A stretch of DNA of 36,615 nt from IMG/VR virus record IMGVR_UViG_3300038309_000043, positions 1 through 36,615 of that record. One strand, written 5' to 3'. The stretch is from a virus. Under the pieces are notes generated by a model. That model was given only the letters and a program-made list of their open reading frames with translations. It was not told the DNA's origin and ran no database searches. The position numbers and the translations under genes are program-made. This document shows positions 5,357 to 36,615 of the stretch, piece after piece (positions within the stretch are counted from its first letter, which is position 1; each line of letters begins with the position of its first letter).

Positions 5357-5375
5357 GGCAGAACAACCAAATCTT

Positions 5376-5429
5376 GCCCGGCTCCTGGCCCTTCCTTTTC
5401 CCCTTTCGTATTCCGGGGGCCGGGCTTTT
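5376..5429 (+). terminator. rho-independent terminator of the recombination operon
   Basis: GCCCGGC at 5376-5382 pairs with GCCGGGC at 5419-5425 and is followed by TTTT. It separates the recombination operon from the cassette region, implying that the cassettes need their own promoter or read-through. Confidence 0.75.
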
Positions 5430-5486
5430 AAAAGGTGCGGCGCATGTGAATAGTTATATAGAATCTATCTAATTTAATTGTTATGG
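5430..5486 (+). promoter_or_regulatory. left boundary of the cassette array, possible attI-like/promoter segment
   Basis: This AT-rich stretch after the terminator contains ATAGAaTCTAT at 5458-5468 and two GTTAT-containing sites, GTTATAT (5453-5459) and GTTATGG (5480-5486). The second is the probable insertion point: the 11 bases from 5480 pair with the R'' arm of the first attC (5632-5642). TATATA/TATCTA boxes could drive the cassettes, but I cannot define a convincing -35/-10 pair. Confidence 0.4.
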
Positions 5487-5492
5487 TGTCTT

Positions 5493-5711
5493 ATGGAAAT
5501 TAAACTTTTAAACAAAAACCACCACGGCTTGTTTTTCTCTGTTCATAGGTTTTGGAAAGGTGTTTATATCCATCTTCCATTTAAAAGCAAAACATATACG
5601 TTTAGACTTTTCCTGTTTGGCTTTGACTGGTGGCACCATAACAACCGCATTCACGCGGACCGGGCTAACCGTCCGGCTTCCGGTGAATGCCCAACAGCGC
5701 CCGGCCAGTGA
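5493..5711 (+). CDS. cassette 1 protein, small aromatic/basic hypothetical (72 aa)
   Basis: Not recognised. The body (MEIKLLNKNHHGLFFSVHRF to LFGFDWWHHN) is rich in aromatic and basic residues and predicted beta-strand. The last ~24 residues, from the second N of HHNN onward, are encoded by the attC1 site itself, as seen in many integron cassettes. The ATG is only 6 bases after GTTATGG with no clear ribosome site; a TTG at 5478 is the in-frame alternative but would lie outside the cassette. Expression is therefore uncertain. Confidence 0.5.
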   Translation: MEIKLLNKNHHGLFFSVHRFWKGVYIHLPFKSKTYTFRLFLFGFDWWHHNNRIHADRANRPASGECPTAPGQ

Positions 5712-5726
5712 TGCGGGGCGTTATAT
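5636..5726 (+). repeat. attC1 (integron-type recombination site)
   Basis: R'' CCATAAC at 5636-5642 and R' GTTATAT at 5720-5726. Between them, CCGCATTCAC (5645-5654) pairs with GTGATGCGG (5708-5716), leaving one T unpaired on the left arm. An inner stem pairs CCGGGC (5660-5665) with GCCCGG (5699-5704). R''/R' ends, imperfect arms with single extrahelical bases and a variable loop are the defining features of attC. Confidence 0.75.
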
Positions 5727-5748
5727 CGCAACTTAAAAGGAGGCAAAA

Positions 5749-5979
5749 ATGCAGGTAATGAGCCCGGAAGAAGAAGTAATTTTCAGTAAAATGTTTGAAA
5801 CCAAAGATCAAATGGAAGCGGCGAGGGAAAGCATGCAGGCCCAAGAGGAATTCAAGGATTGCACGTTTCACACATCCGCATTGCCCGTGGTGGGGGAGGT
5901 GGTTGAGATCAAAGGGTTGAGGTTTCGTTGCTCAAACGTATCCGTAAAAAAGGGGTATGTCGGCTTTCATATTCTTTAG
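5749..5979 (+). CDS. cassette 2 protein, hypothetical (76 aa)
   Basis: Not recognised. The N-terminal half is acidic and helical (SPEEEVIFSKMFETKDQMEAA), and the C-terminal half is predicted beta (VVGEVVEIKGLRFRCSNVSV, GYVGFHIL). AAAAGGAGGCAAAA gives an excellent ribosome site 23 bases after the attC1 cut, the usual cassette arrangement. The stop lies 4 bases before the start of the attC2 R'' arm. Cassette proteins are often strain-specific orphans, so lack of recognition is unsurprising. Confidence 0.65.
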   Translation: MQVMSPEEEVIFSKMFETKDQMEAARESMQAQEEFKDCTFHTSALPVVGEVVEIKGLRFRCSNVSVKKGYVGFHIL

Positions 5980-5983
5980 CGGC

Positions 5984-6043
5984 GTTGCGATATAACCAAC
6001 GGGTGGTTGGGACGCTCCGCGCCCCACACCCTTGGCGTTATAT
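5984..6043 (+). repeat. attC2 (integron-type recombination site, ~60 bp)
   Basis: The extended R'' arm GTTGCGATATAAC (5984-5996) and R' GTTATAT (6037-6043) flank arms CCAAcGGGTGgTtGGG and CCCCACACCCTTGG, which pair with single unpaired bases on the left arm. The R'' arm is a perfect 13-base complement of GTTATATCGCAAC at 5720-5732, the start of the same cassette. Positions 6000-6041 are identical to 6953-6994 in attC4. Confidence 0.85.
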
Positions 6044-6064
6044 TGCATGGCTTAAGGAGGAAGC

Positions 6065-6259
6065 ATGGAAGAATTAAAACCGTGTCCGTTTTGTGGAAGC
6101 GAAGCGAGGCTATGGCGTGATTATTATTTTAGCCCGATCTGTAAATTTTATAAAGTCGGATGCAAAAAAGGATGTGTATGGATGCCGCCGGCACAAAGTA
6201 AATCATTTACCACCAAAGACGCGGCGGTCAAAGCATGGAACCGCCGCCATGCAACCTAA
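6065..6259 (+). CDS. cassette 3: Lar-family restriction alleviation-like protein
   Basis: The 64-residue zinc-ribbon protein has the Lar-family pattern: LKPCPFCGSEA (C7, C10), VGCKKGC (C33, C37) and a C-terminal DAAVKAWNRR. The Rac-prophage Lar protein is known to relieve type I restriction by stimulating modification; many phage Lar-like proteins share only the fold. AAGGAGG precedes the ATG. The stop codon TAA sits inside the R'' arm of attC3. Together with the methyltransferase-like gene at the left edge it suggests an anti-restriction theme. Function is inferred from family. Confidence 0.75.
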   Translation: MEELKPCPFCGSEARLWRDYYFSPICKFYKVGCKKGCVWMPPAQSKSFTTKDAAVKAWNRRHAT

Positions 6260-6386
6260 CAACTCATTCGTGTGGGACTGGCGGGGCCGAAGCCCTTGCG
6301 GTGAAGGGTAATAATAATGGTCGGATGGAATCCGCACGTCTGGCTGAATAGACGCCACCGCCAGCCCCACATTTCAACCGTTATGC
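6254..6386 (+). repeat. attC3 (long integron-type recombination site, ~133 bp)
   Basis: R'' ACCTAAC (6254-6260, matching RYYYAAC) and R' GTTATGC (6380-6386, the R' form of Vibrio cholerae VCRs). TGTGGGACTGGCGG (6271-6284) pairs with CCGCCAGCCCCACA (6359-6372) with one mismatch. The outer arm GCCATGCAACCTAAC (6246-6260) matches 13 of 15 bases of the complement of this cassette's start at 6037-6051. The ~75-base loop holds small hairpins. Length is within the known attC range. Confidence 0.75.
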
Positions 6387-6403
6387 AGAAAAAGGAGGTA
6401 GTA

Positions 6404-6814
6404 ATGATTACAAACAAGTACGGAGTCAACCGAACGCTGTGGGCCAAAATGAGCGACACCGCTCAACTTATTTTTAATGACGTCTATGTGAATGTCTTGA
6501 ACCAAGACGGTATGATACATCCCGCAGCAGTTAAGCAGTCCGCCGAAGAATGGCAAACAGTTGCCCACAATGCTGCGTGTTATGCGGCTTGGGCATACGA
6601 TGAGCGAATGCCTAAATCTTGGCAGAAAGAACGGCATGAGGCCGTTATTGATGCATTTAAAAACGAAGCGGGGCGTTGGCATGCTCGGCTTTCAGCGGCG
6701 GATTTTAAGGATGGATCGGCTATCTATGAGTCAATGGCCAAAAAAACCAGAAAAGCTGCAATAAATGATTGTGAGTGTGCGGCGGCCCACCTTAATTGGG
6801 TGATTGTAGGTTAA
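6404..6814 (+). CDS. cassette 4 protein, hypothetical (136 aa)
   Basis: Not recognised. The protein is predominantly helical and alanine-rich (WQTVAHNAACYAAWAYDE, DCECAAAHLNWV) with many tryptophans and no membrane segment. The start at 6404 has AAAGGAGG upstream and lies 24 bases after the attC3 cut; the in-frame start at 6317 lies inside attC3 and is unlikely. Unlike cassettes 1-3, a 128-base structured stretch separates its stop from the clear attC. Confidence 0.65.
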   Translation: MITNKYGVNRTLWAKMSDTAQLIFNDVYVNVLNQDGMIHPAAVKQSAEEWQTVAHNAACYAAWAYDERMPKSWQKERHEAVIDAFKNEAGRWHARLSAADFKDGSAIYESMAKKTRKAAINDCECAAAHLNWVIVG

Positions 6815-6942
6815 CGACAAGTTTGCCGGTATCCGATGCCCGAAAGGCGTAGTAGGGCGGACAGTCATTGGGCCAGTTTTAAGGACTTTTACCCAGCCCA
6901 TGACTGTTTTCCCGTCGGTTACGCACCGGCAATTTAAACAAC
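6809..6942 (+). other. structured non-coding stretch, possible degenerate attC
   Basis: ACAGTCATtGGGC (6861-6873) pairs with GCCCATGACTGT (6896-6907), leaving one T unpaired. An outer TTTGCCGGT (near 6822) pairs with ACCGGCAA (6925-6932), and GTTAAC-GAC (6810-6818) can pair with GTC-GGTTAC (6914-6922). It could be a second attC (R'' GGTTAAC, R' GTTACGC), which would make 6919-6990 a gene-less mini-cassette, or a structured 3' UTR. The left arm has ~40 unpaired bases, which is atypical. Confidence 0.4.
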
Positions 6943-6996
6943 GCCTAACAACCGGGTGGTTGGGACGCTCCGCGCCCCACACCCTTGGCGTTATTG
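6943..6996 (+). repeat. attC4 (integron-type recombination site, ~54 bp)
   Basis: R'' GCCTAAC (6943-6949) and R' GTTATTG (6990-6996) enclose the same central stem as attC2; 42 bases (6953-6994) are identical to 6000-6041. The R'' agrees in 6 of 7 bases with the complement of GTTATGC, the start of cassette 4. Confidence 0.8.
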
Positions 6997-7011
6997 CAGG
7001 AAGGAGAACCC

Positions 7012-7581
7012 ATGAATAAAAAACTGCCAAAGCACCTTGGAATGACATACCGGGAATTCAAGGTGGGAACAATAAAAAAAACCATTTACATGATCACCCT
7101 GATCCTTTTGTCGGGTTGCGCCCATCTTGGCGACTGGAAAGTGAACGGCATCCCTTTGTCACGGTTCAAAGATGCCGGCCCAAAGGAATATTCTCAGCTT
7201 GCCGGAGGTGTCGGACTGTCGTTTCTGGCTCACTGGGCAGGCCATGTGGTTTGCCTCGAAAGTCAAGGCGCTGAGTGGCACCAGGACGGGCTTTCGGAGG
7301 TGTACACGGCCAAAGACCTTACAGAATCAGAAAACCGCTGGGTGGGCCGCTCAGGCTTTGTAGCGAAGCTTTTGGTAGGCACTGGACTGAAGCACACAAA
7401 ATGGGCCGATTCGTGGTGGGTGACGGGCTATCAGATCGGAACAGTGGCTGAGATTACAACGTACCCGGTTCTGTTCAATGGAGATGGTGATTTATACACA
7501 ATCCGAAACCACGGCGGCAATGCGGATCTTGAATATTTGTTTTATTCGGGCTGGGCGTTGTGGAACCTGGGGCCGTATTAA
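7012..7581 (+). CDS. lipoprotein, hypothetical (189 aa), downstream of the cassette array
   Basis: After a basic cytoplasmic start (KKLPKHLGMTYREFK), a hydrophobic helix ends in a lipobox LILLSGC (Cys ~36), so the mature part is probably periplasmic or outer-membrane anchored. The mature sequence (ESQGAEWHQDG, WADSWWVTGYQIGTVAEI, EYLFYSGWALWNL) is not a family I recognise. AGGAAGGAGAACCC precedes the start, 16 bases after the attC4 R'. I find no attC after it, so it is either the phage gene next to the insertion or a cassette that lost its attC. It converges with the late operon. Confidence 0.65.
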   Translation: MNKKLPKHLGMTYREFKVGTIKKTIYMITLILLSGCAHLGDWKVNGIPLSRFKDAGPKEYSQLAGGVGLSFLAHWAGHVVCLESQGAEWHQDGLSEVYTAKDLTESENRWVGRSGFVAKLLVGTGLKHTKWADSWWVTGYQIGTVAEITTYPVLFNGDGDLYTIRNHGGNADLEYLFYSGWALWNLGPY

Positions 7582-33425: not shown

Positions 33426-33433
33426 ACTAAACC

Positions 33434-33457
33434 CGGCCCGGTCTGTTAGACGGGCCG
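33434..33457 (+). other. strong intergenic hairpin
   Basis: CGGCCCG(G)TCT-GTT-AGACGGGCCG forms a 10-bp stem with one bulged G and a three-base loop. No T-run follows, and the ribosome site of the next gene begins right after it, so an RNA-processing or translation-modulating role is as likely as termination. Confidence 0.55.
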
Positions 33458-33472
33458 TGGGAGGAATGAAAC

Positions 33473-33676
33473 ATGATATATTATACACCAGAAACAATTT
33501 ATCAGGGATTTGAGATTATCAAAAACAGCATACCAACACAATCAAGGTTTGTCTTGTGTACAGACACAGAGGCTGAAATTATGGAATGGCTGGAAGAAGA
33601 ACCGGGCAGGGAATACAAAAACATTTTACATAATTTTACATGCAAAAGCTCAAAGAAGTATTCATACGAATATTAA
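33473..33676 (+). CDS. hypothetical protein (67 aa)
   Basis: Not recognised. A mixed alpha/beta small protein (MIYYTPETIYQGFEIIKNSI; RFVLCTDTEAEIMEWLEEEP) with Tyr/Lys-rich end. GGGAGGAATGAAAC precedes the start. Its TAA stop lies within an attC-like R'' arm (33669-33677). Confidence 0.6.
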   Translation: MIYYTPETIYQGFEIIKNSIPTQSRFVLCTDTEAEIMEWLEEEPGREYKNILHNFTCKSSKKYSYEY

Positions 33677-33727
33677 CCCCTGACCCTGCCCATGAGAGAT
33701 CGTGGGCAGTAGTGAGGCGTTAATATT
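33669..33727 (+). repeat. attC-like inverted repeat (59 bp), outside the main array
   Basis: AATATTAAC (33669-33677) is perfectly complementary to GTTAATATT (33719-33727), and CTGCCCA (33686-33692) pairs with TGGGCAG (33703-33709). The stop codon upstream is inside the left arm, and the right arm is followed by a leader with AAAGGAGG and a start, as in the array. R'' does not fit RYYYAAC and cassette-circle complementarity is not visible, so this may be an ordinary hairpin. Confidence 0.4.
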
Positions 33728-33749
33728 AACAATAAACAAAGGAGGCACC

Positions 33750-35155: not shown

Positions 35156-35593
35156 TTATGCCGTTATACAGCCCTCAAAAAGTTTGTTTTTAAGTGTAAT
35201 ATACAAACCCTCTTGATACCCAGGTTCGGCCCATGACCTGAAACAGATCGCAGTCACTTGCGTATCATCTTTCCAAAAGATACCGTTCATAACGTCCTCA
35301 ACGGCCTTGGATATGTTTGTGCCGTCCGGCTTTTGCAGGTAGTCCATAGGGGCGGACGGTTTCAGCTTGTCGCTATTTCGACCCGAGCCGTAGTGACTGA
35401 GTGGCCTCTGAAATACCGCATTGACAATCAATGAAGCCGGGCCTTCCGGTGGGTTTTTTCGGTTTTTTGGTAGCCGCCATGGTTTGCCTGTATCAAGCCT
35501 GGCATGTTTTGTCAAGTATTTTGTGCGGTTTTGGTCTTTTACAGCACCTTGGCTTGAATAGCCCCCGGTGAATATCCGAGCGATTCGCATATC
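35156..35593 (-). CDS. RusA-like Holliday junction resolvase
   Basis: The C-terminal half matches RusA-family crossover junction endonucleases: LKPSAPMDYLQKPDGTN, then KAVEDVMNGIFWKDDTQV (acids near D89, D99, D108, D109 from the chosen start). RusA proteins resolve recombination and replication junctions. One oddity: the family's KPD-x-DN motif reads KPDGTN, so the second catalytic-region Asp is Thr. The start is uncertain; ATG 35593 overlaps the upstream gene by 55 bases and lacks a ribosome site, and the frame remains open further upstream. Confidence 0.7.
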   Translation of the reverse strand, partial: DMRIARIFTGGYSSQGAVKDQNRTKYLTKHARLDTGKPWRLPKNRKNPPEGPASLIVNAVFQRPLSHYGSGRNSDKLKPSAPMDYLQKPDGTNISKAVEDVMNGIFWKDDTQVTAICFRSWAEPGYQEGLYITLKNKLFEGCITA

Positions 35594-35763
35594 CACGGAA
35601 ACGACCCAACGGAGTACCCCTTGGTATTCCGAAGCCATGCCCTTGCGTTCCTGCGGTTCTTTTCCACGATCCGGCTGGCTGTTGTGTCTTTGGTTGCCAC
35701 CGGCGCGTTCATATCCTCTACTGCCTGGGCTATTACAGCGGCCCATAAGTCTCTTTCGTTCAC
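35539..35763 (-). CDS. small phage protein with PWICESLG motif (74 aa)
   Basis: A helical protein (NERDLWAAVIAQAVEDMNAP; RNARAWLRNT) ending FPWICESLGYSPGAIQAKVL, reminiscent of small phage proteins with a WVCE-LG-DP C-terminal motif of unknown function. I chose GTG 35763 because AAAAGGGGGTAGAC precedes it; ATG 35811 upstream has none. It overlaps the RusA-like gene. Confidence 0.6.
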   Translation of the reverse strand: MNERDLWAAVIAQAVEDMNAPVATKDTTASRIVEKNRRNARAWLRNTKGYSVGSFPWICESLGYSPGAIQAKVL

Positions 35764-36103: not shown

Positions 36104-36426
36104 CCCACCACCTCCACCTCTATTTCGGTTCTCTGGTGTTCCTTGTCGTGGCATTCCCTACAAAGCGTTTCAAGGCCGTCCGGGTGGCATAGAATATGCT
36201 CATAAACTGCGTCAATAACGGCTTCCCAATTCACAATCAACTCCTTGTGGTGAACCTGGACGGCAAACTCTTTACCCTTGGCCTTACTCTGCTTCCTTCC
36301 GCAACACTGGCAGGTATAGTTGTCCCGCTTGATTGCAGCTGCCCTCTCCCTTGACCTGAGCCACACTTGCCGGATAGCCGCCCTTACCTTTGACCGTGGA
36401 GTTTGTATCGGGTTCTTTTTACCCAT
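36100..36426 (-). CDS. HNH endonuclease
   Basis: A 108-residue HNH protein: C39/C42 (CQCCGRK), HH at 59-60 (VQVHHKE), Asn ~66, then C89/C92 and H93/H97 (LCRECHDKEH). This is the zinc-containing HNH core. Phage HNH enzymes in this position nick DNA in packaging or act as free-standing nucleases; being far from the terminase here, its role is open. The ATG at 36426 is coupled to the upstream partial gene by TGATG. Confidence 0.8.
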   Translation of the reverse strand: MGKKNPIQTPRSKVRAAIRQVWLRSRERAAAIKRDNYTCQCCGRKQSKAKGKEFAVQVHHKELIVNWEAVIDAVYEHILCHPDGLETLCRECHDKEHQRTEIEVEVVG

Positions 36427-36615
36427 CACACCCCCTTTGACCAGACGTTCCCCGGTAGTGTTAGAAGCCTTATCCCGTATTTTAATATTTTTATTTTCAT
36501 AGCGTAAGTAGCAGCGTGAGCAGCGCGAGCAGCGTGAGCAGCAGCGTAAGCAGCAGCGTGAGCAGCAGCGTCAGCAGCAGCGTCAGCAGCGTAAGCAGCA
36601 GCGTAAGCAGCAGCG
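36426..36615 (-). CDS. partial protein with Ala-rich AAAX repeats (C-terminal end)
   Basis: The frame is open at the right window edge. About 38 residues of Ala-Ala-Ala-X repeats (X = Tyr, Asp, His, Arg) are followed by a short tail (MKIKILKYGIRLLTLPG) and a TGA overlapping the next ATG. Similar AAY/AAD/AAR-type repeats occur near the ends of many hypothetical phage proteins. The DNA is a low-complexity AGCAGCGTNAGC repeat, so the contig may also end here for assembly reasons. Confidence 0.55.
   Translation of the reverse strand, partial: AAAYAAAYAADAAADAAAHAAAYAAAHAARAAHAATYAMKIKILKYGIRLLTLPGNVWSKGV

Follow-up and report, generated by a model that had tools for sequence, protein, structure and literature searches.

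Known Phage-Borne Cassette Arrays

The screening of 10,705 phage genomes by Qi et al. (2023) retrieved three complete integrons, one In0, and 17 CALINs (PMC9892861); the known cases are few, that is, the 21 phages with integron parts reported in that work. Five out of the six phage attC sites tested by the same authors recombined into attI1 with IntI1, at rates like those of the bacterial control; moreover, they noted that methyltransferase cassettes in phages could counter host restriction (PMC9892861). Phages have already been proposed as cassette carriers (PMC9892861), and the array described in the present work is a further clear example.

We analyzed a stretch of viral DNA of 36,615 bases (hereafter, the window), which corresponds to the entire IMG/VR record IMGVR_UViG_3300038309_000043, classed as “linear”; the contig is metagenomic and possibly incomplete. 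With a probability of about 0.9, the region between positions 5480 and 6996 is a phage-borne integron cassette array without an integrase (a CALIN), carried by a podovirus. Similarly to the array of Tetrasphaera phage TJE1 (HQ225832) and to the other CALINs of Qi et al., it consists of attC sites and short cassettes in the same orientation with no integrase; the TJE1 array also adjoins a terminator, and its sites get similar scores with the scanner used here. Furthermore, both sets include probable anti-restriction cassettes, i.e., methyltransferases in the phages of Qi et al. and a lar gene in the present array. The differences concern the phage, which is a podovirus without a close relative, the cassettes, and the attC types. 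The structure of the attC sites, the presence of one (mostly unknown) gene per cassette, and the short leader with a strong ribosome-binding site are shared with bacterial CALINs and sedentary chromosomal integrons, from which the array differs in its location in a phage, in the integrase and attI not having been found, and in the mixture of attC types. Particular to this array are the Lar cassette and the location between the terminator of the early operon and an orphan gene.

Genomic Context of the Array

The original prediction placed the array inside a P22-like phage genome with no visible integron integrase. Concerning the genome, profile matches revealed podovirus genes on both sides of the array, which is thus embedded in phage-type DNA. 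On the left, profile searches identified a rightward early operon coding for a RecE-like/DUF3799 nuclease, RecT, and a DUF968 protein; on the right, past the orphan gene located at 7012–7581, they identified a convergent leftward late operon, whose products are the terminase, a portal/adaptor, an adaptor, the major head protein, Hc3, and DNA-ejection proteins. The head and tail module of podoviruses is represented by TerS, TerL, the adaptor, Hc3, and DNA ejection, with profile matches denoting a remote similarity. The label “P22-like” holds for this tail module and does not extend to close kinship, the terminase sharing less than 30% identity with that of any phage in the collection. As for the integrase, neither the TIGR02249 nor the PF00589 (tyrosine recombinase) profile matched anywhere in the record, in agreement with the prediction. 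The locus is not a complete integron, as intI is absent by profile and no attI was recognized by eye upstream of position 5480; the segment 5426–5480 bears a short AT-rich resemblance to an attI, and we do not claim this identity. The search on Rfam did not retrieve any match, and no tRNA was found by the tRNA search.

Two further features lie close to the other end of the record. The sequence 35156–35746 codes for a RusA-like Holliday junction resolvase (phrog_140, E = 7.9e-14), and an ORF at 36426–36615 is truncated by the end of the contig; it translates into an alanine-rich AAAYAAAYAADAAAD repeat, a possible reason for the assembly stopping at position 36,615.

Immediately 5′ of the array, on the plus strand, a stem of 13 bp followed by TTTT (5375–5425) resembles an intrinsic terminator (−28.5 kcal/mol for 5371–5445 in a fold with RNA parameters). 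A simple terminator scan omits it because of its long loop; this terminator-like element appears to close the rightward early operon. It is followed by the left boundary of the array (5426–5480, plus strand), an AT-rich sequence of 55 bases whose last base is the G of the first G/TTA, the slash marking the crossover point; no attC is present upstream of it. We infer that this segment is a candidate secondary insertion site or, as a guess, a candidate promoter; the promoter scan retrieved no promoter-like match in it. The right flank (6991–7581, plus strand) is composed of the leader TTATTGCAGGAAGGAGAACCC and the orphan gene 7012–7581, coding for 189 amino acids. If the cassettes were removed, the left flank, ending in AATTG, would continue directly into TTATTGCAGGAAGGAGAACCC and the orphan gene; the insertion probably interrupted the leader of the latter. 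The product of this gene carries a lipoprotein-like LSGC motif; the profile search assigned it to no family and tblastn did not retrieve any match in phages, a weak tblastn match (27%) being located on a Persicobacter replicon.

Organization of the Cassettes

As predicted, the region 5480–6996 harbors four cassettes on the same (plus) strand, each with one ORF and each ending in an attC-like site. The G/TTA crossover cores are located at positions 5480, 5720, 6037, 6380, and 6990, and the TAAC cores of the R″ boxes at 5639, 5993, 6257, and 6946; the resulting cassettes are 240, 317, 343, and 610 bases long. A CALIN is recognized by two or more attC sites lying a few kb apart at most, with no integrase nearby; here, the four sites lie within 1.4 kb.

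Cassette 1 (5481–5720, 240 bp) carries an ORF (5493–5711, 72 aa) that extends through most of its own attC, whereas cassettes 2, 3, and 4 open with a short leader bearing the strong ribosome-binding site AGGAGG. Cassette 2 (5721–6037, 317 bp) embeds the ORF 5749–5979 (76 aa), and cassette 3 (6038–6380, 343 bp) the ORF 6065–6259 (64 aa), whose stop codon falls inside R″ and whose product matched the Lar family profile. Cassette 4 (6381–6990, 610 bp) contains the ORF 6404–6814 (136 aa). The products of cassettes 1, 2, and 4 have no family; for those of cassettes 1 and 4, neither the profile search nor tblastn in phages and plasmids retrieved any match. The structure predictions were of low confidence, with a mean pLDDT of 52 for the product of cassette 4 and 64 for that of cassette 2. 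The 3′ part of cassette 4 includes, 5′ of its attC, a further large stem-loop (about 6823–6933) of the form TTTGCCGGT...ACCGGCAA with a nested stem; it might be what remains of an earlier attC, now without its R′ box, in a fused cassette, and the support for this is too thin for us to claim it.

The attC Sites

An attC site is defined as a palindrome of about 57–141 bp enclosed by two inverse core boxes, R″ (RYYYAAC) and R′ (GTTRRRY) (PMC3053210). The four sites, all on the plus strand, are attC1 (5636–5726, 91 bp; R″ CCATAAC, R′ GTTATAT), attC2 (5990–6043, 54 bp; R″ ATATAAC, R′ GTTATAT), attC3 (6254–6386, 133 bp; R″ ACCTAAC, R′ GTTATGC), and attC4 (6943–6996, 54 bp; R″ GCCTAAC, R′ GTTATTG). 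The TAAC...GTTA motif is present in all four, the 54 bp of attC2 and attC4 being slightly below the reported range, and the R′ boxes follow the strict GTTRRRY consensus solely in their first four bases; the GTTATGC box also occurs in the known array of phage TJE1. Moreover, attC2 and attC4 share an identical core of 41 bases, which adjoins two different genes and is present in two copies in the record.

In an unbiased scan of the whole window, the scanner considered pairs of YAAC...GTTR motifs 40–150 bases apart whose 7-base boxes pair at five or more positions, and scored how well the inner arms pair. The first three ranks on the plus strand were occupied by attC3 (46), attC1 (46), and attC2 (43), followed by a hairpin at 33674/33719 (39) and, in the fifth position, by attC4 (37). 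The maximum reached in 60 dinucleotide-preserving shuffles of the window was 42, with a mean of about 0.45 matches scoring 37 or more per shuffled window. According to these data, attC1, attC2, and attC3 are individually beyond chance, and attC4, taken alone, is not significant and lies within chance; the latter was accepted because its core is identical to that of attC2. The scan of both strands of 31 other viral loci (143.6 kb) retrieved a single site at 41 and none above. As for the positive controls, the known attC sites of plasmid resistance cassettes mostly scored 42–53, some long ones being lower, and those of published phages scored 50, 39, and 36 (TJE1) and 34–44 (Vibrio phage p16).

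Circular cassettes have their R″ paired with their own first bases. This pairing represents the strongest test for the cassette nature of these elements, terminators and processing hairpins having no reason for it. The comparison of each R″ region with the start of its own cassette revealed a complementary run of nine bases in cassette 1, a run of 13 bases in cassette 2, and 13 complementary positions out of 15 in cassette 3; in all three cases, the own start was the best of the five. The complementarity is absent from cassette 4; summed over the four cassettes, it has a P of about 5e-6 against random GTTA/TAAC pairs from the window. This is what is expected of circularized cassettes.

The bottom strands of the four sites fold better than their shuffles, with z values of −2.2, −3.7, −2.2, and −4.0 for attC1 to attC4, respectively. 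Single unpaired bases on one side of the arms had been proposed for all the sites; we observed them in attC1, attC2, and attC4, where the surplus is mainly on the L″ side, resembling the reference site of aadA1. In the case of attC3, the extrahelical bases did not resolve, its minimum-energy fold having an L stem of 14 bp with the R boxes unpaired.

The covariance-model check suggested in the original prediction was carried out with a small, independent home-made model, built from ten plasmid attC sites, the long ones being trimmed in the loop, and gave weak support, limited to attC2. The top match in the window was the bottom strand of attC2 (16.5 bits, E = 0.049), and attC4 obtained 9.3 bits (E = 2.9, not significant); attC1 and attC3 were absent at E ≤ 10 from the output of this ten-sequence model, which is insensitive to long sites. 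Indeed, the full-length arr-3 site, present in trimmed form in the training set, obtained just 10.1 bits; hence, the silence of the model on long sites carries little weight.

A further hairpin (33665–33730) is very stable (bottom strand, z = −7.6), is delimited by TATTAAC...GTTAATA ends, and scored 39 in the scan; the same home-made model assigned it 9.1 bits, which is not significant. The stop codon of the ORF 33473–33676 lies in its first box, and a ribosome-binding site and a new ORF follow it. On the basis of these sequence features, it is a candidate for a solitary attC of this phage. Just 5′ of the ORF starting at 33473, the loop formed by the GC-rich palindrome CGGCCCGGTCTGTTAGACGGGCCG (33432–33460) contains a GTTAGAC motif; a terminator with an inverted GTTRRRY was described by Qi et al. 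at the edge of the TJE1 array (PMC9892861).

The Lar Cassette

The product of cassette 3 matched PF14354 over its whole length (E = 4.7e-11, 43.2 bits with a cut-off of 28.6) and phrog_599 (E = 6.4e-12); with TIGR03655 it obtained 38.0 bits, slightly under the narrower cut-off of 39.6. The profile matches thus identify it as a predicted Lar-family restriction-alleviation protein of 64 residues, similar over its entire length to the Lar proteins of the Rac prophage type (PF14354), and probably a blocker of bacterial DNA-cutting defences. In the Rac prophage, Lar alleviates type I restriction. In contrast with cassette 3, where the gene sits beside an attC, none of the 31 other viral loci harboring Lar relatives has a significant attC site within about 2.5 kb, which indicates that lar is not usually a cassette gene. 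In a limited search of the open-access literature, no report of lar in an attC gene cassette was found.

Search for a Donor and for Related Phages

The exact attC core (26 and 25 bases) did not retrieve any match in IMG/VR or in 84,980 prokaryote genomes (GTDB), and the same was true of a degenerate L/R-box pattern in IMG/VR and the GTDB genomes. A slightly degenerate core matched once, within the tail gene of a phage contig unrelated to the present one, and the scanner indicated a chance match. A VCR query had no match in the phage collection, though Vibrio phage p16 harbors Vibrio attC sites; since this query missed them, negative DNA searches for attC say little. Probing IMG/VR with the orphan gene at 7012, the terminase, or the ORF of cassette 4 retrieved no relative, and RecT retrieved two distant contigs with a different gene order and no significant attC-like sites. 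Neither a close relative nor a relative with the same locus or an empty site was found in these searches.

Origin of the Array

The way in which the cassettes reached the phage can be depicted as follows. The phage DNA would have been inside an integron-bearing host, whose IntI would act on the folded bottom strands of the attC sites in circular cassettes; these would be inserted at a G/TT point within the leader that precedes the orphan phage gene, where the early operon ends, with a first attC × secondary site reaction followed by attC × attC reactions. Cassettes entering at sites other than attI and attC, termed “attG”, have been described in works cited in PMC12901181 and PMC11023631. The phage would then keep the cassettes as cargo; the array may share a single upstream promoter, and cassettes 2–4 have their own strong ribosome-binding sites. 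Lastly, the Lar protein of cassette 3 would attenuate type I restriction by the next host, and any IntI-bearing host could re-excise or add cassettes.

Entry mediated by an integrase, as against uptake of the array as a block, is the route towards which we lean. According to the latter possibility, which we regard as rather doubtful, a real array was acquired from a host chromosomal integron through homologous or illegitimate recombination, with no integrase acting on the phage. Qi et al. raised this explanation for several phage CALINs (PMC9892861), and it agrees with the single attC type shared by cassettes 2 and 4, as in a chromosomal array, and with the composition of the DNA, where GC content and skew are continuous across the array and base composition shows no step at either junction. 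Nevertheless, both ends of the array fall at G/TTA crossover points, as an integrase-mediated insertion would leave them; moreover, no attC precedes the left end, the right end is followed by a ribosome-binding site and a gene, and three different attC sizes are mixed in the same array.

Starting from integrase-mediated entry, one might also imagine that the lineage maintains, in the interval separating the early-operon terminator from the orphan gene, a dedicated landing site, swapping counter-defence genes such as lar via host integrons, which we consider improbable. If this were true, the phage would own a swappable anti-defence module served by an enzyme that it does not carry, and the attC-like hairpin at 33671–33725 would be a second such site.

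The possibility that the palindromes are ordinary hairpins (weak terminators or processing sites) of a normal early operon, resembling attC by chance, is very improbable. Small phage genes on the same strand with intervening hairpins are common, the top strand folds too, and attC4 alone falls within chance; yet three sites outscore the 60 shuffles and the 143.6 kb of other viral DNA, and R″ finds its complement at the beginning of its own cassette, 150–270 bases away, which a terminator does not need. Furthermore, no T-runs follow the attC stems, and an identical core is found beside two unrelated genes. Finally, a chimeric assembly of a phage and a bacterial CALIN, conceivable for a metagenomic contig classed as “linear”, is hardly credible, as the phage genes on both sides would require two separate misjoins, both at G/TTA, GC content and skew are continuous, and one of the cassettes encodes a phage-type protein.

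Returning to an integrase-free cassette array carried by a podovirus, a phage whose cassettes have functional attC sites could transfer integron genes among bacteria lacking plasmid exchange with one another, and could acquire counter-defence genes from the cassette store of its host. In the present case, a cassette is linked to a recognizable anti-restriction gene, so that an advantage to the phage is easily proposed and readily testable.
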